This document shows, in pieces, positions 2,287 to 15,499 of a stretch of DNA of 38,162 nt. The DNA lies in NCBI GenBank assembly GCA_016763185.1, contig JAESUG010000053.1, positions 1-38,162 on the forward strand, written 5' to 3'. The notes beneath the pieces were generated by a model. It was not told the origin of the DNA. It was given only the letters and a program-made list of their open reading frames with translations, and did no database searches. The translations under genes and the position numbers were made by a program. The stretch comes from Robiginitomaculum sp. Its GTDB lineage: Bacteria > Pseudomonadota > Alphaproteobacteria > Caulobacterales > Maricaulaceae. Positions within the stretch are counted from its first letter, which is position 1. Every line of letters begins with the position of its first letter.

Positions 2287-2913
2287 TTGTCAAAGCTTTG
2301 GGATCGTTGGGGAAAGCCGCTGGTATTTGTAGCCTTGGCGCTGCCATTGCTGTGGTTGCTCTGGCAATGGGGTTTGCTATTTGTCGGCAAACCCGGCGCG
2401 TTGGGGGCGAACCCGATTGAGGCCACCAATCGGTTTTTGGGCGATACGGCGCTTAGGGTTTTGTTGCTGACCTTGGCGGTTACGCCATTTCGCGATATTA
2501 CGGGTTGGATTAAAATTACCAAACTTCGGCGGATGATCGGGCTTTTCACATTTTTCTATGTGGCGTTGCATTTGACCTCGTATTTTGGCATGGACTTATG
2601 GTTCTCACTGTCGGCATTGCTCAAAGACATTGCCAAGCGAACCTATATTACATTGGGGATGATCGCCTTTGGCTTGTTGATCCCATTGGCCTTGACCTCA
2701 ACCAATGGGATGATCCGAAGGCTTGGCCCGAAACGCTGGCGGCGATTACATATGCTGGTGTATCCGATTGCGATGCTGGGCGTGTTGCACCATTTCTTGA
2801 TGATCAAGGGCAATCAACCAGCGCCTTGGGTGCATTTTGCAATTCTGGCCGTGTTGCTCGGTTGGCGCATCGTGAAATGGTACCAACGCAACAAGGCTTC
2901 GGGCAAAGCTTAA
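2287..2913 (+). CDS. msrQ: MsrQ, haem-binding membrane subunit of the Msr system
   Basis: Inner-membrane b-type cytochrome that passes electrons from the quinone pool or a flavin reductase to MsrP. The 208-residue protein is mostly hydrophobic, with the ferric-reductase-like fold expected of YedZ/MsrQ. Candidate haem-ligand histidines are H95 (VALHLTSYFG), H155 (RRLHMLVYP) and H168/H169 (GVLHHFLM). The start codon is TTG, immediately after the msrP TAA with no gap, so the pair is almost certainly co-translated. The 3' end overlaps the convergent flgH by 4 bases. Confidence 0.93.
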   Translation: MSKLWDRWGKPLVFVALALPLLWLLWQWGLLFVGKPGALGANPIEATNRFLGDTALRVLLLTLAVTPFRDITGWIKITKLRRMIGLFTFFYVALHLTSYFGMDLWFSLSALLKDIAKRTYITLGMIAFGLLIPLALTSTNGMIRRLGPKRWRRLHMLVYPIAMLGVLHHFLMIKGNQPAPWVHFAILAVLLGWRIVKWYQRNKASGKA

Positions 2914-3632
2914 AACGGAAACAGAATATCATATAGCTCTTGGCCATAGCGCGGGTTTTGCGCGTCCGAAATAATACCGCGACCGCCATAAGAAATGCGA
3001 GCTTCGGCAATTTGGCTATGGGCAATGATATTGTTCGACGAGATATCTTGGGGTCGAACCACACCAGAGATCAACAAATCGCGAATCTCGTGATTGATCC
3101 GCACTTCCTGACGACCTGCGATCACCATATTCCCATTGGGCAATACCTGGGTGACAATCGCCGCCACGGTCAAGGAAATTGTCTCGGAGCGCACTACGGT
3201 GCCCGCCCCGCGATTGGAGCTGGTTGAGCCTAGGGAAGTTAAGGCGCCGGGGGTAATGCCGCCTAAATGATTTTCCAATCCGAAAAAGTTCGAAAGATCA
3301 GAATCTTCGGCGCTGGAGCGCGAACGCTCTGTGGTATTTTGCACATTTGCCGAGTCAGAAATATTGATCGCAACCGTCAAAATATCTCCAACATTATTGG
3401 CTCGTTGATCGTTAAAAAACGTCCGTGAACCTGTGCGCCATAGAGAATTAGTTTGTTGCTGCGCGGCCTCTGGTGCCGGCATGGGCATCACAACGGGCCG
3501 CCGCCCATAAACTTCGGACGGGTTCTGCATCGGCGATAATTCAGGTGCTTTGCCAATGTCTTTGATCTTTTGAAATGTGCCGCATCCACCCAATATTAAG
3601 GTCATTGCGCCGAGCAAAAGCCATTTTTTCAT
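2910..3632 (-). CDS. flgH: FlgH, flagellar L-ring lipoprotein
   Basis: Outer-membrane ring of the flagellar basal body, forming the bushing through which the rod passes. The 240-residue precursor has a lipoprotein signal ending in LGGC, with the lipidated cysteine at residue 17. It also carries the conserved FlgH segments SLWRTGSRTFFNDQRANNVGDILTV, NMVIAGRQEVRINHEIRDLLISGVVRPQDIS and the C-terminal SYGGRGIISDAQ. The serine/asparagine-rich stretch between residues 95 and 150 is typical. It is the last gene of flgF-flgG-flgA-flgH, two bases after the flgA stop. The P-ring gene flgI is not in the window. Confidence 0.97.
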   Translation of the reverse strand: MKKWLLLGAMTLILGGCGTFQKIKDIGKAPELSPMQNPSEVYGRRPVVMPMPAPEAAQQQTNSLWRTGSRTFFNDQRANNVGDILTVAINISDSANVQNTTERSRSSAEDSDLSNFFGLENHLGGITPGALTSLGSTSSNRGAGTVVRSETISLTVAAIVTQVLPNGNMVIAGRQEVRINHEIRDLLISGVVRPQDISSNNIIAHSQIAEARISYGGRGIISDAQNPRYGQELYDILFPF

Positions 3633-3634
3633 AA

Positions 3635-4627
3635 TTAACCCCCAAAGGTTTGTGTTGATGCAGCCACCGCTTGGCCAGGTCCCGTAATGGTTATTTCGAT
3701 GGTCCGGTTTGACGATACATTAACCGCTCGAACCGTGTCCCCGGTGCCGGCATTGACCAATACTTTGGCCCGTGAGGTTAATCTCAAACCAGGTACATTG
3801 TACGAAATGGTGACCAGTTCGCCTTTTTTGACCGTATCCGGTGTTTTTACATCATGTTTGCGTAGCGCTTTGGCCGCGCCTAATGAACGCCGTGCCGCCT
3901 TGCCAACAAGCTGATCTTCTTCGCGTAATAGGCTCGTGCCCAACCGGTTTGCTCGGATGGATATCCAATGAATGTCGTTGGCATTGATAATTTCGCCGCT
4001 GCTTACCCGTCGGTTTAGCGCTGGAATTTGCGTCAACTGCCAGGCGCGACCGCGTAAGGTCACTGGCTTTGCCCCATCATACGGGACGATCTGCGCTGTA
4101 AAGCTACCATTTGCTGGATTAAGCTCAATATGCTCGACATAGGGGTCGCTCATGGCTGTTTGCGGTACAAATAATCCAGCGGCGCCACCACTAATCGCTA
4201 GCTCATAGTCCATGCCGTCACCATCTTCGGTTAATTTGCGGGTCAGCAAGTTGGACAGTTCAAGCGCGCCAAGACGACGGCCTGGTCGTTGGATGAGAAC
4301 CCGCTGCACATTATCGGAATTATACCATTGACGGCCATTGGCTAGGGCAGCTCGAATAATGGTGGCGGGATGTAATGCCAGCCGGCGACCGGGTTCTGGG
4401 GCCGTGGCCACGATCTTGTCGGCCATATCGTCAGCGTTTAAAAACAAATCGCCCAGCGTTATCTGATGACTATCAACAATAATCTCGCCGCGCAGTTGTA
4501 GCGGATCTGCGGCAGGCTCCGCGGGTGCGCCAAGTACGAGCGATGCAGAAACCACCAATAATAAAAGGCCAAGTGCAAAAATGCCAAGTTTGCGACGAAA
4601 GTTCATATAATCAGCGTGTTTGATCAT
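3635..4627 (-). CDS. flgA: FlgA, P-ring assembly chaperone
   Basis: Periplasmic chaperone for assembly of the FlgI P-ring. From the ATG at 4627 it is 330 residues, with an N-terminal signal region (a basic start, then a hydrophobic run ending near VLGAPAEP). The C-terminal half has the SAF-like fold of FlgA (ALNRRVSSGEIINANDIHW, then LVGKAARRSLGAAKALRKHDVK and VTISYNVPGLRLTSRAKVL). A TTG one codon earlier is in frame, but AGGGG sits six bases before the ATG and overlaps the flgG stop, favouring the ATG. It is longer than enterobacterial FlgA (about 220 residues), with an extra N-terminal beta domain, as in other Alphaproteobacteria. Confidence 0.93.
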   Translation of the reverse strand: MIKHADYMNFRRKLGIFALGLLLLVVSASLVLGAPAEPAADPLQLRGEIIVDSHQITLGDLFLNADDMADKIVATAPEPGRRLALHPATIIRAALANGRQWYNSDNVQRVLIQRPGRRLGALELSNLLTRKLTEDGDGMDYELAISGGAAGLFVPQTAMSDPYVEHIELNPANGSFTAQIVPYDGAKPVTLRGRAWQLTQIPALNRRVSSGEIINANDIHWISIRANRLGTSLLREEDQLVGKAARRSLGAAKALRKHDVKTPDTVKKGELVTISYNVPGLRLTSRAKVLVNAGTGDTVRAVNVSSNRTIEITITGPGQAVAASTQTFGG

Positions 4628-4636
4628 CAAAGACCC

Positions 4637-5425
4637 CTATCGGCGTAAGTTAGAGCTGGTGGAGAGCATTTCATCGGCGGCGGTGATGACTTTGGAGTTC
4701 ATCTCATAGGCACGTTGGGCTTGGATCAATGCGGTGATTTCCTGCACGGCATTGACGTTCGAAGCCTCGATAAAGCCTTGGGTAATCCGTCCAAACCCTT
4801 GGGCACCGGGGGTGCCCGTACTGGCCGGACCAGAAGCCGCAGATTCGAGAAATAGATTATCGCCTTGTGGGTCAAGGCCACCTTTGTTGAAGAAACTGGC
4901 CAGTTCAAGTTGCCCGACAATTTGCGGCGCAGTTTGGCCGGCCGTGACGACTTGTACCTGTCCTTGTTGTGAAATGATGACATCAAGAGCGTCTTGCGGG
5001 ACGGTAATCCCCGGTGACACCACATAGCCGTCTTCGGTTAATAGCTGTCCGTCTGGACCAAGGGCAAAGTTCCCGGCGCGGGTATAGGCATCTTCACCAG
5101 AGGGCAATTGCACGACAAAATAACCCTCACCGGCAATGGCCAGATCATAGGGATTACCCGTTTGGGTTAAATTTCCCTGCTCGGTAACCCGGTATACGGA
5201 ACCGGCTTTTACGCCCAAGCCAACTTGTACGCCGGTGGGGACAACGGTGCCGGCATCGGACGAGCTGGCCCCTGGACGTTCTATGGTTTGATAGAGCAAA
5301 TCCTGAAACTCGGCACGTTGGCGTTTATAGCCGGTGGTGTTCATATTGGCGATATTATTGGAAATTACTTCCACATTTAATTGTTGCGCCAACATTCCAG
5401 TTGCTGCTGTATTTAGTGCACGCAT
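4637..5425 (-). CDS. flgG: FlgG, distal rod protein
   Basis: Structural subunit of the distal flagellar rod, exported by the flagellar type III system. The 262 residues have the rod/hook N-terminal signature (AATGMLAQQLNVEVISNNIANMNTTGYK), the central GNPYDLAIAGEGYFVVQLPSG and YTRAGNF segments, and the C-terminal coil with ALIQAQRAYEMNSKVITAADEML. Length is normal for the family. It starts 22 bases after flgF with a purine-rich ribosome site and is followed by flgA within 9 bases, so all four genes form one transcription unit. Confidence 0.98.
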   Translation of the reverse strand: MRALNTAATGMLAQQLNVEVISNNIANMNTTGYKRQRAEFQDLLYQTIERPGASSSDAGTVVPTGVQVGLGVKAGSVYRVTEQGNLTQTGNPYDLAIAGEGYFVVQLPSGEDAYTRAGNFALGPDGQLLTEDGYVVSPGITVPQDALDVIISQQGQVQVVTAGQTAPQIVGQLELASFFNKGGLDPQGDNLFLESAASGPASTGTPGAQGFGRITQGFIEASNVNAVQEITALIQAQRAYEMNSKVITAADEMLSTSSNLRR

Positions 5426-5447
5426 GTCCCCATCTCCCTTTTAAAAT

Positions 5448-6182
5448 TTAATTTACTTTGCCAAGACGTTGAATGGCTTGGCGGGTGGTGTCTTCTTCTG
5501 TTTTGAGCATATTAGATACCGATTGATAGGCACGAGTAACGCGGATCATCCGGCTCATCTCAAGGATCGGCACTACGTTAGAGCGCTCCAGAAAGCCTTG
5601 CATAACCTGCGGGGTTTCTATGTTTAGTATTTCGGCATTTTCCGAGGCGCGATACCGCCCAGAGCCATCTTTGGACAGATCTGAAAGCGAAGAAAACCCG
5701 ACGATTTTTAACCGACCAATTTCGACATTATTCACCGTGATTACGCCTTTGGCATCAATCCTTGGGGCTTCGCCGTAGGCATCTAGCAAAATTGGTGCAT
5801 CCGTATCAAGTACCATCATGCCGTCTGCTGTGCTCAATGTGCCTGTGGCATCTACCGTGAAACGACCATTTTTGGTGTATCGTTCGCCTTGTGGCGTTTC
5901 GATAACAAAGAAGCCATGGCCAACCAATGCAACATCTAAGGGTCGACCTGTGGTTTCCATGACGCCATCGGAAAAATCTCTGGCCACGCCCAGGTCTTGA
6001 ACGAAATTGATCTTGCTTGGGCCATCTTGATGACTGGACGTTTTGCCAGGGTTTGCGCCGAGCAACATTCTTTCCACCTTAAACCCGGCGGTGGTCATAT
6101 TGGCCAAATTATTAGCGATAATTGACAATTCCCGACGTAACGTCATTTGTCGAGAGAGCCCGACCACCATCGCATTTTCCAT
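5448..6182 (-). CDS. flgF: FlgF, proximal rod protein
   Basis: Rod subunit of the basal body and first gene of the flgF-flgG-flgA-flgH unit. The 244 residues show the shared N-terminal rod motif in a variant form (SRQMTLRRELSIIANNLANMTTAGFK), the core PLDVALVGHGFFVIETPQGERYTKNGRFTVD, and the C-terminal rod helix NVVPILEMSRMIRVTRAYQSVSNML. AAAGG lies eight bases before the ATG. Fifty-eight bases upstream is a near-perfect sigma-54 promoter (6240-6256), giving a 5' leader of about 45-50 bases. Confidence 0.97.
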   Translation of the reverse strand: MENAMVVGLSRQMTLRRELSIIANNLANMTTAGFKVERMLLGANPGKTSSHQDGPSKINFVQDLGVARDFSDGVMETTGRPLDVALVGHGFFVIETPQGERYTKNGRFTVDATGTLSTADGMMVLDTDAPILLDAYGEAPRIDAKGVITVNNVEIGRLKIVGFSSLSDLSKDGSGRYRASENAEILNIETPQVMQGFLERSNVVPILEMSRMIRVTRAYQSVSNMLKTEEDTTRQAIQRLGKVN

Positions 6183-6464: not shown

Positions 6465-7010
6465 ATGGCCGAAGATGCCGAAGTTGACGAAAATGAAGAT
6501 GAAGATGGCGAGGAGAAGCCCAAAAAATCGAAGAAAAAGCTCCTGCTGTTTGTCGGGTTACCGGTCGTCATTGTTTTACTAGTGGCGATAGGTGTTGGTT
6601 TGATGTTGATGGGCGGCGGTGACGAAGAGGTGGTGCTGGATGAAGATGGGAAGCCGGTGAACGTCAGCGAAAGCACTGAGAGCAAAATGGCGAGCGGCCC
6701 GGTTCCAATATTTTACCAAATGCCGGAAATTTTGGTGAATATCTCCGGAGAAGAAGAAGGTGAGCAATTGATTTTGCAGATCAATATCCAACTCGAAGTG
6801 CCTGATGAGGAAACCATTCATCAGCTTGATTTACTGTTGCCGCGTGTGGTCGACCAATATCAAAGTTTCTTACGGGAATTGCGCGTCGAAGATATTAAAG
6901 GCTCGGCGGGAAATTACCGCTTACGGTTAGAATTATTACGGCGCGTGAACCTTGCTATGCAGCCTGCTTATGTGAACGACGTGCTCATTGAAAAATTATT
7001 GGTGAACTAA
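6465..7010 (+). CDS. fliL: FliL, basal-body/stator-associated membrane protein
   Basis: Single-pass inner-membrane protein that surrounds and stabilises the motor stators. The 181 residues comprise a strongly acidic then lysine-rich cytoplasmic tail (residues 1-25), one transmembrane helix (about 26-49) and a periplasmic domain with the typical FliL sequence (YQMPEILVNISGEEEGEQLILQINIQLEV, LLPRVVDQYQSFLRELRVEDIKGSAG, and a C-terminal hydrophobic VLIEKLLVN). A GGAG ribosome site precedes the ATG. It opens the plus-strand flagellar unit, with fliM three bases after its stop. Confidence 0.95.
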   Translation: MAEDAEVDENEDEDGEEKPKKSKKKLLLFVGLPVVIVLLVAIGVGLMLMGGGDEEVVLDEDGKPVNVSESTESKMASGPVPIFYQMPEILVNISGEEEGEQLILQINIQLEVPDEETIHQLDLLLPRVVDQYQSFLRELRVEDIKGSAGNYRLRLELLRRVNLAMQPAYVNDVLIEKLLVN

Positions 7011-7013
7011 TAA

Positions 7014-8195
7014 ATGGCAAGTGATGCAGACCAAGAAGCGATGATGGCCGCCTGGGAGGCGGAAGCTGGGGATGACGATGGTGCAAGTTCCACGAAGGGC
7101 GGCGGCGACGCCGATGCGGGCAATGATGACGCATTTGCTGCCGAATGGGAGGCTATGGTTGGCGATGATGGCGGTACCATTAGCGCTACCGAGCCAGAAG
7201 GTCCCGGTTCCGAACGTATTCTTAACCAAGACGAGATTGATAACCTGCTCGGCTTTGATGGCTCCGAAGAAACCGGTGATGAGCAGTCGGGCATCCGCGC
7301 CATTATTGATAGCGGGCTGGTCAGTTACGAACGACTTCCCATGCTGGAGATCGTATTTGATCGCTTAGTGCGAATGATGACGACGTCGTTACGTAATTTT
7401 ACCTCGGACAATGTTGAAGTTAGCCTCGACAATATTTCCTCTATCCGCTTTGGTGATTATTTGAATTCCATTCCGTTGCCAGCTATTTTGGCGGTTTTTC
7501 GGGCGGAACAGCTTGATAATTATGGACTTTTCACGGTAGATTCGAATTTAATATACTCGATTGTTGATGTGTTATTGGGCGGGCATCGTGGCACGGCAGC
7601 CATGCGGGTTGAGGGCCGACCCTACACCACGATTGAACGCCAATTGGTGCAAAAAATGATCCGGGTGGTGCTCGATGATGCGCAACGAGCGTTTGCGCCG
7701 TTAACGCAGGTCGACTTCACCTTGGACCGGATTGAAACCAATCCGAGGTTTGCCGCAATTGCTCGTCCGGATAACGCGGCGATTTTAGTGCGGTTACGCA
7801 TTGATATGGAAGACCGGGGCGGGCGCATTGAGCTGATGCTGCCGTATTCAACACTAGAGCCCATTCGCAAAATGTTGCTCCAACAATTCATGGGCGAAAA
7901 ATTTGGCCGTGATAATATTTGGGAAAGCCATTTAGCCTCACAATTATGGTCAACAGGCATTGATGTGCAGGCCGTTTTGGACGAGCACTCCGTTCCGCTG
8001 TCGCGGGTGATGGATTTAAAAGTCGGCGATACATTAATGCTGAATACGCCGCCGGATGGAGATATCGAGATCCGATGTGGCAATATCCCGATAGCGACCG
8101 CCAAAATGGGCAGAATGGGGCATCATGTAGCGGTACGGATTGGAAAAACCTTGGCCAAAGAAAAAGCCGCGCAAAAAATACTGGAACAAACGTAA
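7014..8195 (+). CDS. fliM: FliM, flagellar switch protein with acidic N-terminal extension
   Basis: C-ring protein that binds CheY-phosphate and transmits the switching signal to FliG. The CheY-binding motif LNQDEIDNLLGF, usually at the extreme N-terminus, sits at residues 70-81. It follows an acidic, Gly-rich extension carrying two similar segments, MMAAWEAEAGDDDG (10-23) and FAAEWEAMVGDDGG (41-54). The middle domain (YERLPMLEIVFDRLVRMM through GGRIELMLPYSTLEPIR) and the C-terminal FliN-like domain (LDEHSVPLSRVMDLKVGDTL) are complete, for 393 residues in all. Such extensions are, as I recall, seen in other alphaproteobacterial FliM. The stop overlaps the next ATG (TAATG). Confidence 0.97.
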   Translation: MASDADQEAMMAAWEAEAGDDDGASSTKGGGDADAGNDDAFAAEWEAMVGDDGGTISATEPEGPGSERILNQDEIDNLLGFDGSEETGDEQSGIRAIIDSGLVSYERLPMLEIVFDRLVRMMTTSLRNFTSDNVEVSLDNISSIRFGDYLNSIPLPAILAVFRAEQLDNYGLFTVDSNLIYSIVDVLLGGHRGTAAMRVEGRPYTTIERQLVQKMIRVVLDDAQRAFAPLTQVDFTLDRIETNPRFAAIARPDNAAILVRLRIDMEDRGGRIELMLPYSTLEPIRKMLLQQFMGEKFGRDNIWESHLASQLWSTGIDVQAVLDEHSVPLSRVMDLKVGDTLMLNTPPDGDIEIRCGNIPIATAKMGRMGHHVAVRIGKTLAKEKAAQKILEQT

Positions 8196-8572
8196 TGACA
8201 ATCTCTCTTGCCTTTGAAATTTTAGTTAGTTTATTGCTGATGGTGACCATTGGGTACTGTTTCGTGTTGGATCGGCGCTTAAAAGCACTGCGTTCTGGCC
8301 AAGACGGGGTACGACAATCTATTGTCGAATTGGTTCAAGCTACGCTGCAAGCGGAACAAAGCGTGCAATTGCTGACCAAAACCGGGACACAAATTACGCA
8401 AGATATTTCCGCTAAAATCACTGAAGCAAAACGAGCAACTGCCAGCATTCAACAACCCATTCCAACGACCCCGGCGGCCCGGCCCAATCCATTAGCAAGT
8501 CCATTAGCCGGGTTAGGGCGTGATGCGGCGACCAGCTTGATGGATCGCTTAAAACAAGCAGGAGCACAATAA
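8195..8572 (+). CDS. DUF6468 flagellar-operon membrane protein
   Basis: A 125-residue single-pass membrane protein. The ATG at 8195 shares a base with the fliM stop. Residues 5-24 form the membrane helix, 27-82 a predicted coiled coil rich in Gln, Glu and Leu, and 87-105 a Pro/Ala linker (about six prolines) before a short amphipathic end. From memory this is the DUF6468 family, which sits after fliM in many Alphaproteobacteria. Its place and layout (bitopic, proline-containing tail) recall PflI, the Caulobacter polar flagellum-positioning protein. That identification is tentative and rests on context, not on a residue-level match I can verify. Confidence 0.75.
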   Translation: MTISLAFEILVSLLLMVTIGYCFVLDRRLKALRSGQDGVRQSIVELVQATLQAEQSVQLLTKTGTQITQDISAKITEAKRATASIQQPIPTTPAARPNPLASPLAGLGRDAATSLMDRLKQAGAQ

Positions 8573-9279
8573 TGTCCATTCGTTTATTTGCTATTCTTGC
8601 GATCATCGGCCTTGGCTTGATTGCCATCAAAGCGTTGTCGATTACGGATGAGGTATTGTCCTTGATAAATCCGGTGCAACCGGCATGGGCGGCCGCAAAA
8701 CCAAAAGAAGATGATGCGGCAAAGAAAGATTTAATGATGTCTGAGGCTTCGGACACGATGGTTGAACCGGAGGTTGCATCAAAACGCCAAGGCCCGCAAA
8801 GGCTAAGCTTTGCCGAGCAAGCTGGACTGAGCGAGCAAGAATTAAATGTGGTTTTACGCTTAAGTGAACGCCGCGAAGAACTTGACAAGCGAGAGCGTGG
8901 TCTACAAATCAGAGAAGCAGTTGTCGCTCTTTCCGAGAAACAATTGGATGAGCGCCTGATGAGAATTGAAGGTGCGATTGCCAAATATGACGAGCGTATC
9001 GGTTTATTAGACGAACAAGAAACGGTACGTATATCGGCGGTGGTCAGAACCTATGAAGCGATGAAACCAAAATCCGCTGCTGCGATTTTTAATACCTTGG
9101 ATAAAGGGGTGTTATTACAAGTTTCGACGCGAATGAAACCCTCGGCAATGGCGAAAGTGTTAGCGGCGATGGATACGAAACTGGCCTCGGATTTGACCGT
9201 CCAGATGGCCGAGCAATTCTCTATCCCCAAAACTGCCGAAGCATTGTTGAATGATAGACAATCTGCCCCGGAAGGTTAA
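8572..9279 (+). CDS. MotE-like flagellar coiled-coil protein
   Basis: A 235-residue protein with an N-terminal hydrophobic anchor or uncleaved signal (about residues 4-22), an Ala/Lys linker, a long charged coiled coil (about 95-150), and a C-terminal MgtE-N/FliG-like helical domain (RTYEAMKPKSAAAIFNTLD, then KPSAMAKVLAAMD). This order matches MotE, the periplasmic chaperone of MotC described in Rhizobium, and related proteins of flagellar operons. Its ATG overlaps the previous stop (TAATG), so fliM, the DUF6468 gene and this gene are translationally coupled. Whether it acts on MotB here, since no MotC is visible, is open. Confidence 0.8.
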   Translation: MSIRLFAILAIIGLGLIAIKALSITDEVLSLINPVQPAWAAAKPKEDDAAKKDLMMSEASDTMVEPEVASKRQGPQRLSFAEQAGLSEQELNVVLRLSERREELDKRERGLQIREAVVALSEKQLDERLMRIEGAIAKYDERIGLLDEQETVRISAVVRTYEAMKPKSAAAIFNTLDKGVLLQVSTRMKPSAMAKVLAAMDTKLASDLTVQMAEQFSIPKTAEALLNDRQSAPEG

Positions 9280-9379
9280 CCGAAAAACCGTGATTTTCTA
9301 ACTCTAGCTTAACCCTGTTTGGATAACGTAATTGCAATGCTGCGCCAATGGGGTGTGGGTTGAGGAGTTTTGGAATTTG

Positions 9380-12300
9380 ATGATGATGAACTTGGGCATC
9401 ATAAAGATTTGGTTAGCCATCATGGCGATCTGCTTTGGTCTCTTGGTGGCGGTGACGGCCAATGCCCAGCAAGCGGTCAGTTTCAGTACGCAAACCGGCA
9501 CCGGCTATGGCCGAATATTGGTGAGCTGGCCCGAAGGAAATACGCCGCCGGGGCTGCATGTAGAAGCCAATATCACCAACAGTGTATTGGTGATCAAATT
9601 CAATGAACTTTTTACCGGCGACTCTAAGCTCATCCGTGACGGGTTGCCGAACCGGATCGCTTTGGCGCGGTTGGATGGGGATGGCAAGACCATACGGATT
9701 GCTTTGCGCCAACCGGTTGAAGTTCAAACTTCAAAATCTCACAATGTGTTTGCGATTGACTTAGTGGCGCCAAACGCCGGTATTACGCCGCCAAAACTAG
9801 TTTCACCTTTGGCCAAGCGACAAGCGGACCAAATCGCTTCTGCCAAAAAACGGGTGCGTGATGAAGTAGAGAAAGCCAAGCATTTATCGCGAGAAAGCCC
9901 GGCTTTACCGTTACAAGTCAGACATGCGCAAAGCTTGGATAACACGCGTATCACCTTCGATTGGACCGAAACCGTGGAGTTTCGAATGTTGGAACGGCAA
10001 AATGGACTGGATATCGTCTTTGACCGTCCTGCGGTTCCGGCTCTTGCCGCGCTAAACGCGGCGCAACCTCGCGGGTTTTTATCGGCTAGTTCGCAAGTTC
10101 GTCAGGGCAAAACGATTGTTTCCATCAACAAAAGTTTTGGGTTTTCTCATCGTATATCCCGCGAAGGTACATATGTTAATGTCGATCTTTTTGGGGAGGT
10201 TGAACCATCGGAATTGGTTGTTTCTGCACTTGAACCGACGCCGGACTCTGTTGCGCCCTCTGTTGCGGACCCTATTGCGTCAGTGATTGTGCCGGTGAAA
10301 TCCGAACGGGATAATCCGGTTCCGCTTTCTGGTGTTGTTCCCGTAAAAGTCACGGCCAAGGGGTCGGCATTGCACCTAACTTTTGATTGGGCTGCACCGG
10401 TCGGCGCAGCTTCATTTCAACGAGGTGATGCGTTATGGATCGTATTTGATGCAACGGTGCGCATGGATATTTTGGAACTCCGAGAAGGCGGTAGCCGGCA
10501 TGTGGTCCAGCGCAAAGCCTTGCAAGGTTTGGATTATTCAGGTTTGAAAATTCGTATCCCAGCCTCAACTCAAATTGAAGCTCGTCCAAATGGCGATGGC
10601 ACAAGTTGGACATTTATACTCGATGACACATTGGCATTTCCGATAGCTGAAATTGACTTGCGCCGAGAGGCTGATGGTTCTGGTCCTGGACGCTTGGCGG
10701 CATTGGTAAAAAATGCGACTTCCTTGCTTTGGGTTGAAGACGAAGACGTGGGCGATACCTTGGTGGTGGTTACGGGCGTTGGGCCGTCAGTCGGGTTAAC
10801 GGACCCGCGCCGGTTTGTTGAAGTATCCGTATTGCCATCGGCGCAAGGCATGGCTTTTGAAATAGCGGCGGACGGGTTGGACATCCAGCTACAAGGCGAA
10901 CTGCTTACGATCAATTCTACAAAAGGCCTGAACCTCACCCCTTCGGCGACGCCGTTACATCTTAATTCCCAAAGAACAGGTGAGATCGCTCGGATGGGGG
11001 CTGCGCCCGCCATCTCTGCTTCGCCCGGGTTTATTGATTTTGAAAAATGGAAAAACCTTGGTGGTGAAGGCTCCTTTCACAAGACGTATGGTGCGTTATT
11101 ACGCCGGGTGGCGATCGAAGATACCAACCCCGAAGCTAGAATGATCTTGGCTAGGTTTCTCATCGCCCACGAATTAGGGGCCGAGGCTTTGGGGGCTTTG
11201 TCGTTGGCGCAAGCGCTGGACCCTTTGTTGGTCCAAGATGCGCGGTTTCGAGCGTTACGCGGTACGGCTAATTTGCAAATGCATCGGATTAAAAACGCCA
11301 CCGCTGACTTTGCGGCTCAAACCTTAAACCGCGATCCTTCGGCGGCATTATGGCGTGGCTATTTGGCGGTGCAGACCGAAAATTGGATTGAAGCTCGGCA
11401 TAATTTTGAAAAAGGCCATGAGGCTTTTTATCTGTTTATACCAGAATGGCAGGCAAAGTTTCATATTGCCTTTGCCCAAGCTGCGATGCAACTCAACGAC
11501 TTGGGCGCGGCGAAGGCACAATTGCGCGAGGTGTTTGGGAATAATTTATCACTACCAACGCAATTAGAAGCGTCCATGGCCCGGGCCGAATTGGCGCATC
11601 GCAGTGGCCAGAGCAACCAAGCCTTGTCCATTTTGCGTAATGTCATTGCAACCAAGTACGAGCCATTGGTGGTGCAGGCTATTTTTGCGGAAACCCGAAT
11701 GAAACAAGATCTCAACCAAATCTCTCAGTTGGAAGTATCCGAAGTACTAGAAAATTTAAGGTTTCGCTGGCGTGGTGATAAAGTTGAATTGGAATCGGCT
11801 CGTATTTTGGGCGCGTTTTATTCTGAAACCGGTGATTATCGACGGGCCATGGAGGCGATGAGCCTTGCGGTTCGGCGCTTTCCAGACTCGCCGGTCGCCA
11901 AACGATTGCAAGTTGATCTAAGCCGTACATTCTTGGAATTATTTCTTGAGGGCGGTGCCGACAGCATGGACCCGATACAAGCGGTCGCGTTGTTTTACGA
12001 GTTTCAAAGTTTTGTCCCCTTAGGCAATGATGGTGATAGAATGTTGCGGCGGATGGCGGACCGGTTGATCGTGTTTGATTTACTGCCGCAAGCCGCCGAA
12101 TTACTGCAATACCAAGTAGACCAAAAACTGTTTGGACTGGGTAAAGCGCAAGTCGCGGCAGATCTGGCATTGGTATACTTGATGGACCATCAACCAGAAA
12201 AAGCCCTACGCGCTATCAATTCTTCGCGCCAAGCCCGATTGCCAAGGGCGCTCAATATGGAGCGAAGGTTATTAGAGGCACGGGCCTTGCTCGATTTAGG

Positions 12301-12775
12301 TCGGACGCAACATGCGCTTGATCTGATTGAGGTTGACCGAACCAAAGATGCGGAATTTTTACGGGCCGACATTTTTTGGTTGCAAAAAGACTGGCCAAAG
12401 ATCACCAAGCAATTGACCCAAACGATTGAGCGCCATGTCTATAATCCCGCACAATTGGCCGAAAATGAAGCCAGTTTGATCTTACGCGCCACTATTGCCA
12501 GCGCCCTAGCCGATGACAAGCCGGCTTTTGATGCCTTGGTTAGCAGATGGGCGGATGTAATGGCCGAAACCGATGCTGCCGAGGCATTTCGCTTAATCTC
12601 GGCGCAAACCAATTTAGGCGGCGTCGAAGTAAAAGACCTAGCGCGCAGCATTGGCGGCACTGACACCATGCGCTCTTATCTCGAACAATACCGTAATCGC
12701 TTGGCTGAACGCACCCAAAGCGCCGCAGTCGGTGCGACCCTGACAGGTGATGGACCGACAAGTAACGATGGATGA
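9380..12775 (+). CDS. Large exported TPR protein of the fliL operon
   Basis: About 1131 residues. A cleavable signal peptide ends near residue 29 (VTANA before QQAV). Residues 30-540 are beta-rich with three or four repeats of the type 'LHLTFDWAAPV...FQRGDALWIVFD' (compare ITFDWTETVEFRMLERQNGLDIVFD), resembling AMIN-like periplasmic domains. From about 550 to 1060 come tetratricopeptide-type helical repeats (AEALGALSLAQALDP, RRAMEAMSLAVRRFP, AAELLQYQVDQ). It lies 100 bases after the MotE-like gene on the same strand, so it is probably a periplasmic flagellar scaffold. As I remember it, flbY occupies the equivalent place in Caulobacter. GAGGAG precedes a TTG/ATG cluster at 9377-9388, so the exact start is uncertain by a few codons; an earlier ATG at 9332 would spoil the signal peptide. 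Confidence 0.75.
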   Translation: MMMNLGIIKIWLAIMAICFGLLVAVTANAQQAVSFSTQTGTGYGRILVSWPEGNTPPGLHVEANITNSVLVIKFNELFTGDSKLIRDGLPNRIALARLDGDGKTIRIALRQPVEVQTSKSHNVFAIDLVAPNAGITPPKLVSPLAKRQADQIASAKKRVRDEVEKAKHLSRESPALPLQVRHAQSLDNTRITFDWTETVEFRMLERQNGLDIVFDRPAVPALAALNAAQPRGFLSASSQVRQGKTIVSINKSFGFSHRISREGTYVNVDLFGEVEPSELVVSALEPTPDSVAPSVADPIASVIVPVKSERDNPVPLSGVVPVKVTAKGSALHLTFDWAAPVGAASFQRGDALWIVFDATVRMDILELREGGSRHVVQRKALQGLDYSGLKIRIPASTQIEARPNGDGTSWTFILDDTLAFPIAEIDLRREADGSGPGRLAALVKNATSLLWVEDEDVGDTLVVVTGVGPSVGLTDPRRFVEVSVLPSAQGMAFEIAADGLDIQLQGELLTINSTKGLNLTPSATPLHLNSQRTGEIARMGAAPAISASPGFIDFEKWKNLGGEGSFHKTYGALLRRVAIEDTNPEARMILARFLIAHELGAEALGALSLAQALDPLLVQDARFRALRGTANLQMHRIKNATADFAAQTLNRDPSAALWRGYLAVQTENWIEARHNFEKGHEAFYLFIPEWQAKFHIAFAQAAMQLNDLGAAKAQLREVFGNNLSLPTQLEASMARAELAHRSGQSNQALSILRNVIATKYEPLVVQAIFAETRMKQDLNQISQLEVSEVLENLRFRWRGDKVELESARILGAFYSETGDYRRAMEAMSLAVRRFPDSPVAKRLQVDLSRTFLELFLEGGADSMDPIQAVALFYEFQSFVPLGNDGDRMLRRMADRLIVFDLLPQAAELLQYQVDQKLFGLGKAQVAADLALVYLMDHQPEKALRAINSSRQARLPRALNMERRLLEARALLDLGRTQHALDLIEVDRTKDAEFLRADIFWLQKDWPKITKQLTQTIERHVYNPAQLAENEASLILRATIASALADDKPAFDALVSRWADVMAETDAAEAFRLISAQTNLGGVEVKDLARSIGGTDTMRSYLEQYRNRLAERTQSAAVGATLTGDGPTSNDG

Positions 12776-12787
12776 AATTAGCTAGTT

Positions 12788-15499
12788 TTAGAAAAATCCA
12801 CCACCACCGCCGCCGGTTAAGCGGGCGAGACCTGCGGTATAATTGGCAATTTGTGCAGTAAGAAAAGCTGGAACCGGGCCATTGGCAGACCTATTTCGCC
12901 CATTGGTAAGCAAGTCTTGTAACGCAGGGTCAATGGTTAATTGCCGATAAGCGGTACGAACCAGCGATAATGCGTCTTCTAAAACTTTGTTGGCGGAAAT
13001 TGCCGCCGTTAATGTGGTAAGGCCAATGCCGGAGGAAAAACCCAATCCATATATAGGCGGTGCTGCGGAGCTAACCTCACCGGTTGTCAACAAAGGGTTG
13101 GTCCGAATAACCCCTTCGGGGATGCCAAGTGCAGACAATAAATCACGGCCATCCGGTCCAGCAAACAACTCGATGGTATGCTCGTCTGCAGCTTCAATGC
13201 GTAAGGTATCGCCAACGCTTCCACGAACGGTTCTTGAGGTGCCATCCAATACCAAAATCGCGTTGATCTTGAAGGTTAAGGCCCGGTAGGTATCATTTGC
13301 ATCAATCGTGACCGAGCGCCGTGGCCCACCATCAATACTGATCTGCAATTGGTCGCCCTCTCTGGCCACCGTACGTTCGGTGACCACCCGACTATCCGAC
13401 GTTACCGCCAGCCCATGTGGCAAACCAAATACATCCAACACCGAAGTTCCAGCCGGGTCGATGGCCAAGGCATTGGCAGTTGCAATCCCACCGCGGCCAG
13501 TCAACTGGCTGGTGCCTTCCAAGATACCGGTCGTTAGATCAAAGCGGCTAATAAAAGCATTACGGGTTCCATCTAAAACGCCGCCGCCCGGCAAGCTGCC
13601 GGCCGTAGTTCCGGCGGCGTAAAGCTTATCGTTGGCGGTGTCGATACCAGTAATGCGATCTGTCGCCGCCGTGCCTAAGAAATTGGTCCAAATGCGGGTT
13701 GGCACCCCGCCGCCGTCTTCGTCAACACGGATTACAAATCCATCATTTGCACCGGAATGGGCAACAATACCCGCGCCCAAACCATTGTTGGCACCAACGG
13801 TGCCACCGACGATAATTGCCGAACCATTGACACTAAGCGAGGCGATGGAGCCATTGTCCAAACTGCCTAAATCATGTTGCCAAAGGGCCGGATCGGTGCC
13901 GTTGCTGGCGCTATATTTTGTTAATTTACCAATACCATTTTCGCTACTGGCTACCAATAAATCGCCATTGGCATCCAACGCAATTGCAGTTGCGCTCTCG
14001 GCATTACTGGTTCCAAATTGGCGGGTAAACAGGGTATCTCCATTGGTATCTAATGCCCGGATATACCCATCCGAACCCCCATTGTGCGGCCCGCTTAAGC
14101 TGCCATTGGTTGCCCCGACTACATAAATGGTGCCATCATTTGCCACCACCACGCCATTGGCTTGATCATCGGCGTTCGCGCCAAACCGCTTGATAAATTG
14201 CTCGGTGCCATTGCCGTCATATTTCACCACAAAACTATCGGTTCCGCCAAGCTGGGTCGTGTTACTGAATACGCCGCTAACTTTACCGGACAACACAACG
14301 GAACCATCGGCGCCAATGGCCAGACCTCGAACATCGACATCACCCGCCGCCCCCAGCGCTCGTGTAAAGGCGGGCTTTCCGGTGCTGTCAAAGCGAACCA
14401 AGTATATGTCATCCTCGCCGCGCGGGGCCAGGCCAGCGATGGCACCATCAGAGCGGACAATGGCGTAAATTTCACCATTGGTACCGACTTTGGTTGCCAA
14501 GAACTCGGTGGTTGCGTCTTCTGCGGCTTCTAGCCGGGTTGAGAAGTCGATGGCCGGTCCGCCGATCGCTTCGGCATCATATTTGACCAGACGTGCGGTG
14601 GTGGTCTCATCGCTACCTGTAGTGCCTACGGTGTAGATGGCAGGGGTTGCAACGGCGGCGCTAAACTCCAATGGTTCGGTGCTGGAGCCGACAATTTGAA
14701 ATCCGAATTGATTGCCTGGTACCACACCGTTTTCGTCCGGTTCACCAATTTTTACTCGCTTGAATGTTGAAAACAATTCAGCAGCAGCCAGCTCCGTATT
14801 GATGAAATCGGCCACATTGTCCAAAGTTCTAGGGGTTGTCCCTAAATCGGCTAGATTAATATTAACCACCACATCGCCCGTTACTCGTTTGGCGGTGATG
14901 GTAAATTCGGCATCGTCGGCAAACCCTGGAACCACATCATCAAATGCGCCTTGGTGAACCACGCCGGTGATATAATCAGCGCGATTTCGTTCAATGGATA
15001 TGGTGCTGTCAGCCCGGTTGATTTCCGCGCCTTGCAAGAAGGACAATGCCTCAAATTCAGTGACGGCGAGAAAGCTTTCCAACTGGGTAATACCCTCGCC
15101 CAAACGCCGGTCTAATAACCTGCGACGGCTGTCGGTTATGGTGTCGTCGGTGGCCTCAATGCCTAAGGCGGCAAGCCGCCGTATGCCTTGGTACAGAGCA
15201 AATAATTTTTGTTGATCTTCTGGAGCAGCAGTATCGGAAAAGCTTTCCAAATCTTCGTGAAAGAACTCGCCGTTGGCCAGTGCTTGGGTTAATACTGCCG
15301 CTTGTCCCAATGGCGATGCTGCGGGGTCCCAAGGTGGGGGTACAGATGTATCTGGCCGAACGGCGTTAGAGCGCGATAAATTGTTGGCACCGCGGCTGGC
15401 AAACGCTTGTGCTTGGCGCAAAGCGGCCCCGGCCTGATAGTTGCTTAATAGCAAATCAGAGCTTAGTGAGATCGGTCGTGAGAAGCCAAAATCGGCCAT
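12788..15499 (-). CDS. FlaEY-like flagellar protein with beta-propeller
   Basis: A 903-residue protein with no signal peptide. Residues 1-190 are helical and Ala/Gln-rich (QAGAALRQAQAFASRGANNLSRS, then PPPWDPAASPLG). Residues 195-285 and 715-800 resemble the hook/flagellin 'IN' modules (LDNVADFINTELA; DGGPRRSVTIDANDTYRALTFKIN and HTIELFAGPDGRDLLSALG). Between them, about 290-690, are beta-propeller (SBBP-like) repeats of the form 'D-x-A-x-G-[IVL]-A-[IV]-x-x-D-G-x-[IV]-Y-V-x-G' followed by 'D-[AGS]-F-V-x-[KR]-[FY]-D-x-x-G'. The C-terminus is helical and ends in a poly-glycine run. I recall proteins annotated FlaEY in Caulobacter relatives with this build. The modules and the lack of a signal suggest export through the flagellar type III path, but that is inference. 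It converges on the TPR gene with a 12-base gap. Confidence 0.7.
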   Translation of the reverse strand: MADFGFSRPISLSSDLLLSNYQAGAALRQAQAFASRGANNLSRSNAVRPDTSVPPPWDPAASPLGQAAVLTQALANGEFFHEDLESFSDTAAPEDQQKLFALYQGIRRLAALGIEATDDTITDSRRRLLDRRLGEGITQLESFLAVTEFEALSFLQGAEINRADSTISIERNRADYITGVVHQGAFDDVVPGFADDAEFTITAKRVTGDVVVNINLADLGTTPRTLDNVADFINTELAAAELFSTFKRVKIGEPDENGVVPGNQFGFQIVGSSTEPLEFSAAVATPAIYTVGTTGSDETTTARLVKYDAEAIGGPAIDFSTRLEAAEDATTEFLATKVGTNGEIYAIVRSDGAIAGLAPRGEDDIYLVRFDSTGKPAFTRALGAAGDVDVRGLAIGADGSVVLSGKVSGVFSNTTQLGGTDSFVVKYDGNGTEQFIKRFGANADDQANGVVVANDGTIYVVGATNGSLSGPHNGGSDGYIRALDTNGDTLFTRQFGTSNAESATAIALDANGDLLVASSENGIGKLTKYSASNGTDPALWQHDLGSLDNGSIASLSVNGSAIIVGGTVGANNGLGAGIVAHSGANDGFVIRVDEDGGGVPTRIWTNFLGTAATDRITGIDTANDKLYAAGTTAGSLPGGGVLDGTRNAFISRFDLTTGILEGTSQLTGRGGIATANALAIDPAGTSVLDVFGLPHGLAVTSDSRVVTERTVAREGDQLQISIDGGPRRSVTIDANDTYRALTFKINAILVLDGTSRTVRGSVGDTLRIEAADEHTIELFAGPDGRDLLSALGIPEGVIRTNPLLTTGEVSSAAPPIYGLGFSSGIGLTTLTAAISANKVLEDALSLVRTAYRQLTIDPALQDLLTNGRNRSANGPVPAFLTAQIANYTAGLARLTGGGGGGFF

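Follow-up and report, generated by a model that had tools for sequence, protein, structure and literature searches.

The FlaEY locus and its beta-propeller

The window, by which we mean the whole 38,162-nucleotide stretch of the Robiginitomaculum sp. contig JAESUG010000053.1 that was analysed, contains an FlaEY-family gene convergent to a group of forward-strand flagellar genes. The features discussed here are as follows:

2910..6182, minus strand: FlgH, FlgA and two rod proteins, FlgG- and FlgF-like (Pfam; the G/F split follows gene order)
6465..12775, plus strand: FliL, FliM, DUF6468, an MgtE_N/FlbB-like protein and a TPR protein, convergent to FlaEY (Pfam/NCBIfam)
12788..15499, minus strand: FlaEY-family gene, a 903-aa ORF with an ATG start, open throughout and encoding no cysteine
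12815..13012, minus strand: C-terminal helices, residues 830-895 (AlphaFold2; conserved PAYLxAQIANYQAGLxRL motif)
13106..13360, minus strand: IN-type module 2, residues 714-798 (hhalign to FliD; low pLDDT in the model)
13445..14647, minus strand: predicted seven-bladed SBBP/CylK-type beta-propeller, residues 285-685 (AlphaFold2, fold search, phmmer)
14651..14923, minus strand: IN-type module 1, residues 193-283 (hhalign to module 2; pLDDT 70-92 over residues 191-290)
15029..15187, minus strand: flagellin D1-like helical hairpin, residues 105-157 (hhalign to 36 flagellins; model helices)
15404..15460, minus strand: predicted N-terminal helix, residues 14-32 (AlphaFold2, pLDDT <50; family consensus LLxxWYxA; no profile match)

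In the forward group, the MgtE_N/FlbB-like protein and then the 1147-aa TPR protein (8572-12775) are encoded directly after fliL-fliM; the matches to MgtE_N and FlbB fall short of the cut-offs.

The FlaEY protein of the window has no Pfam or NCBIfam match above the curated cut-offs, regulatory or other; its sub-threshold matches are to NHL/SBBP and LipL53-family models plus two weak rows, and across a set of 52 FlaEY homologues 24 Pfam families are matched at E<=0.1. A preliminary description had placed about 400 residues of SBBP-type propeller repeats between two hook-type modules, and the structure prediction agrees as to the propeller: the AlphaFold2 model of the full protein (built from a 5-sequence alignment, mean pLDDT 69, pTM 0.58) has seven blades, as counted on its strand list, at residues 285-685. 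The top fold match of the model is CylK (Z 39.5, rmsd 2.7 A, 352 residues, 25% identity), which is also the sole confident PDB match by sequence (phmmer 9e-36); the remaining PDB rows (antibodies, nucleoprotein, transthyretin and designed propellers) all have E>0.007 and were set aside as chance or general propeller likeness. FlaEY thus shares seven blades with CylK and the SBBP propellers, and differs from them in that the likeness is confined to its propeller, the match spanning residues 285-664. The SBBP assignment holds across the family, with repeats in 37 of the 52 homologues at E<=0.1, whereas the window protein itself falls below the Pfam cut-off. Because propeller matches fill the fold list of the whole model, that list is uninformative on the flanks, and the lack of flagellar folds in it does not count against flank homology.

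Flagellin- and FliD-like elements in the flanks

For comparison of the flanks, sub-profiles were cut from the alignment of the 52 homologues and aligned with hhalign to five flagellar family alignments: FliD (16 sequences), flagellin (36), FlgK (6), FlgL (6) and FlgE/rod (12). The two IN-like modules proposed at about residues 195-285 and 715-800 were recovered at 193-283 and 714-798, and the AlphaFold2 model has a bb-a-bbbb element at 198-294 and a bb-a-bbb element at 717-780, the second at low pLDDT. Module 2 aligns with the IN region in the set of 16 FliDs (96%, P 4e-9, FliD columns 152-239), and Pfam puts Flagellin_IN at 154-210 in one FliD of the target set (L106). FliD alone of the five families is matched, FlgE and FlgK being unmatched; the homology of the modules to hook proteins suggested previously is thus not borne out, module 2 pointing to FliD instead and module 1 on its own having no significant match among the five families. 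Reversed FliD gives 0.1% and 20 column shuffles no more than 0.3%, and among 50 decoy families from the same loci the next-best score is 4.3%, once the family recognised as FliD (15 of its 21 members lie within the FliD set) is put to one side. Between modules 1 and 2 the match covers 71 columns at 89% (P 2e-6) with a 65-sequence profile, a value that falls to 21% with the 52-sequence profile. Pfam Flagellin_IN (PF07196) has no matches in the organism's own genome, so the module call depends on profile-profile comparison; the second module of one long homologue (L053, residues 1312-1351) reaches E 0.19 and 12.4 bits against Flagellin_IN, below the cut-off of 22.7. Judged by these profiles, module 2 and the IN module of FliD are homologous, and so are modules 1 and 2, which flank the propeller.

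The helices of the N-terminal part lie at residues 14-32, 66-74, 94-116 and 123-146 in the AlphaFold2 model. Flagellin is the sole family of the five that they match: the hairpin at 105-157 aligns with the 36 flagellins at 93-95% (P 3e-7 to 6e-8), and the alignment terminates at the flagellin FxGxxLLxG turn. The best non-flagellin family among the 50 decoys reaches 1.6%, a family with 34 of its 40 members within the flagellin set having been set aside, and the controls for both flank matches are low (reversed targets <=0.5%, 20 column shuffles <=0.3%). Moreover, 13 homologues outside the first alignment repeat both flank matches when used alone, at 94.7% and 94.9%. On this comparison residues 105-157 are homologous to the D1 helices of flagellin. 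Residues 1-60 match none of the five families, giving no indication of D0-type termini; one of the 52 homologues matches Flagellin_N (5.7e-4), none matches Flagellin_C in Pfam at E<=0.1, and the C-terminal helices score 1-2.6% against flagellin and have no significant relative among the five families or the decoys. FlaEY therefore resembles flagellin (FliC/Flj) in its N-terminal D1 helices, up to the turn, and is unlike it in having no D0 or Flagellin_C match, in being about three times longer, and in containing a propeller. Helical ends had been described for this protein: the model has helices at both ends, and the N-terminal hairpin is flagellin-like, whereas no relative is recognised for the C-terminal helices. 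The proposed likeness of the flanks to axial proteins is likewise upheld for the hairpin and module 2 by profile-profile comparison. A model made for residues 1-300 only is of low quality (pLDDT 52), and Foldseek returns nothing for it at E<=0.001. The flagellar filament 6jy0, at rank 46 of that Foldseek list (E 0.84), was not counted.

As was stated in the preliminary description, there is no Sec signal: no hydrophobic N-terminal stretch is present, the highest mean over 19 residues being 0.63 within the first 60. Flagellar axial proteins tend to avoid cysteine, and the FlaEY family contains very little of it. There are 11 cysteines per 48,969 residues in the 52 homologues, 45 of which have none at all, and three of the 13 class-level homologues have one; the 14 other proteins of the window have 45 in 7,165 residues (0.63%), at which rate a single 903-aa protein would be free of cysteine by chance with P 0.003. 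The other flagellar sets contain no cysteines in FliD, FlgK and FlgL, four in flagellin and one in FlgE/rod.

Distribution and gene neighbourhoods of FlaEY and FliD

FlaEY is matched at E<=1e-5 in 160 of the 299 genomes of the order, 155 of them strongly, with five weak rows (G170, G179, G204, G228 and G264) left out of the strong set. In a sample of 385 genomes of the class, 39 have a match at 1e-10; 27 of these matches are long and include at least one flank, two are partial (G325 and G535) and ten consist of propeller repeats only, and the last two groups are excluded from the class counts. Three of the ten excluded propeller-only genomes contain FliD_N (G351, G361 and G646). The 27 long homologues comprise four from inside the order and 23 from outside it. 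Thirteen were read as ORFs, in all of which the profile match begins at position 4-39 of 916 and covers module 2; 11 reach position 906-913, and L114 and L115 end at 872-875. Two homologues (L053 5310-9758 and L054 4945-9372) are about 1480 aa in length, with an insert of about 570 aa separating module 1 from the propeller, and the insert contains at least one additional IN-type module (79%). Another (L060 6496-9212) is broken into ORFs of 183 and 709 aa, possibly by decay or sequencing error; its genome, G061, also has FliD.

The presence of strong FlaEY homologues tracks that of flagella. FliM is found in 153 of the 155 order genomes with strong homologues, and the two without it are 57 and 65% complete and both have flagellin. 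Outside the order, 20 of the 23 genomes with long homologues have FliM and all 23 have flagellin, including the three that lack FliM, one of which is rated 100% complete; 13 families outside the order keep both FlaEY and flagellin. All 27 genomes with a strong or long homologue that were checked have flagellin, and FlgK is present in 35 of 36 checked. Congeners without an FlaEY homologue (G464, G560, G615 and G436) have neither FliM nor flagellin. Flagellin is also absent from the two genomes with partial matches, and in one of them (G325) a 181-aa C-terminal FlaEY remnant and a broken FliM stretch share a contig, with about 8 kb between them. The converse fails: in two genomes of family f1 (G019 and G073) flagellin and FlgK are present and FliM (PF02154), FlaEY and FliD_N are absent, and these genomes probably have a different type of flagellum; their FlgK frame is short, at 492-497 aa versus 699-804 in the others listed. 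Strong FlaEY is absent from 38 of the 191 FliM-positive genomes of the order, none of which has FliD_N, and FliM is present in 17 of 43 genomes sampled from the 279 of the class that have neither protein, which shows that a flagellum can do without FlaEY and FliD.

FliD_N is present in nine of the 299 order genomes and in 76 of the 385 class genomes, and in none of the 27 that have a long FlaEY homologue; the P value for this exclusivity, 1e-5 to 7e-5, was computed from an extrapolated number of flagellated genomes and takes no account of relatedness. Strict exclusivity is ruled out, as all nine FliD-bearing genomes of the order also carry FlaEY. Six of these nine were examined, and in each a single 17-kb stretch contains FliD together with flagellin, FlgD, FlgE, FlgK, FlgL, FliS and ECF sigma genes of its own (called by blastp from seeds named by Pfam, FlgL via Flagellin_C only); FlaEY lies either on a different contig or at a distance of over 180 kb. 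Because FliD is placed with a flagellar set of its own and far from FlaEY, and in view of part of PMC12826043, it appears to serve an accessory filament in these genomes. A Caulobacter vibrioides control has FliM, FlgK and flagellin, and no FliD_N match. A passage of PMC6913195 reports that Rhizobiaceae are without FliD; PMC8781033 lists a gene code for Brucella FliD from KEGG, with the remark that FliD has not been described in Brucella, and this counts against a FliD-less picture of the Rhizobiales relatives.

In the Caulobacteraceae-like family (f3), flagellin genes lie within about 6 kb of FlaEY at 10 of 12 loci, and both FlbT and FlaF are nearby at five, one of which (L046) was confirmed by Pfam; we take this flagellin/FlbT/FlaF locus to be the flaEY locus. 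Rod or ring genes are near the homologue at L001, L002, L057, L117 and L118. At 23 of the 38 loci examined with seeds there is no flagellar seed within the stretch covered; L108, which is among these 23, has FlgI and FliF near the homologue. At L114 the homologue adjoins genes for a PfkB-cytidylyltransferase, an SIS isomerase and an NAD epimerase (Pfam), and similar sugar-nucleotide-type neighbours are seen by eye at L111, L112, L115, L116 and L119; the same set includes a 'DFDNT' protein and a kinase-like protein, recognised by eye and unnamed by Pfam on L114. Upstream of 63 homologues we find five exact CtrA-type TTAA-N7-TTAA pairs (0.1 expected from mononucleotide shuffles) and, with one mismatch allowed, 21 (1.6 expected), and there is none in the 200 bases upstream of the window's own gene. 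Sigma54-type sites number four in loose form (0.7 expected), and none are found in strict form upstream of the same 63 homologues.

Possible roles of FlaEY

The axial-type flanks, the propeller, the absence of a Sec signal, the low cysteine content, the co-occurrence with flagellin and FliM and the flagellin neighbours are together more readily explained by a filament-associated protein that is exported than by a regulator in the cytoplasm. We regard it as probable that FlaEY is a structural part of the Caulobacter-type flagellum, of the hook-associated or filament class; its export and its location outside the cell we infer from the homology of the flank elements and the linkage to flagellin. 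As such, FlaEY would be built as a flagellin-like hairpin and two FliD-type IN modules that form a stalk and have the propeller as an insert between them. Export would take place in the unfolded state via the flagellar type III channel, and the protein would then join the growing end of the filament, its propeller facing outward; its likeliest position would be the tip or close to it, in the place that FliD (HAP2) takes in other flagella. The old designation as a regulator could then reflect an assembly defect that feeds back on flagellin expression.

The boldest step is the placement at the cap, and we offer only tentatively the suggestion that FlaEY is the long-missing filament cap (HAP2) of FliD-less Caulobacter-type flagella, composed of flagellin-like and FliD-like pieces and bearing the propeller on the outside; the odds of a role at the junction or in decoration are about equal. 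FlaEY is like FliD in that its module 2 is a homologue of the FliD IN module and sits between helical parts, in that both proteins have helical ends around IN modules, and in the complementary distribution of the two in the class sample. It is unlike FliD in having two IN modules, an inserted propeller and N-terminal helices that are flagellin-like rather than FliD-like, and FliD_N and FliD_C (PF02465/PF07195) are absent from the window protein at E<=1 and from the 52 homologues at E<=0.1. The argument for a cap is weakened by the many flagellated alphaproteobacteria with neither protein, and these same flagella favour a low-copy protein that is exported and axial and displays its propeller over the length of the filament or where hook and filament meet, for adhesion or for contact with a sheath or glycan, without capping. 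The export-type evidence applies equally to such a protein, display would be well served by a large propeller set between two stalk modules, and the extra module in the insert of the two 1480-aa homologues is in keeping with it; however, retention with flagellin in so many families outside the order suggests a more central part than an optional adhesin, and the junction slot already has FlgK. We consider decoration of this kind a real contender, if short of an even chance.

That FlaEY is a cytoplasmic protein regulating the expression of flagellin and chemotaxis genes, as its old name would suggest, is improbable, and the earlier remark that a regulatory role does not obviously fit this architecture is in agreement with the axial-type flanks, the near absence of cysteine, the tracking of flagellin and FliM, and the flagellin neighbours. 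The regulatory label is a published one: a passage of PMC8921679 states, citing Minnich 1988, that FlaE and FlaY modulate flagellin and chemotaxis gene expression and, citing Czieborowski 2020, that a mutant of FlaQ, the Sphingomonas homologue, is changed in fliC and flgI expression, and flaY is named a putative flagellar regulator in part of PMC3667746. Assembly defects can themselves shift expression, however, and the protein has a propeller with flagellin- and FliD-like flanks and, as noted above, no match to a regulatory family above the curated cut-offs. The passages on FlaEY found in the open-licence full-text literature describe no structural or axial role. The structural reading given here departs from the published label for Caulobacter FlaEY, and the likeness to that protein rests on synteny in the Caulobacteraceae-like genomes, the homologues of which adjoin flagellins, FlbT and FlaF. 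It is also conceivable, and in our estimation very improbable, that FlaEY is an enzyme that is exported and acts on flagellin or on flagellin glycans, with the CylK-like propeller as putative active site; the top fold match is an enzyme and sugar-pathway genes adjoin the homologue at L114 and, by eye, at the five similar loci, but many non-enzymatic propellers also match by fold, though CylK is the only confident match by sequence.

Caulobacter crescentus is a main model of flagellar assembly and of cell-cycle control. FliM, FlgK and flagellin are present in C. vibrioides but FliD_N is absent, and FlaEY, conserved with flagella and having axial-type flanks, is a testable candidate for guiding growth at the filament tip in Caulobacter. 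If FlaEY is indeed a filament-class component, a nominal regulator would become a structural part of the flagellum, and the propeller would count among the domains that flagellar axial proteins can take up as inserts.
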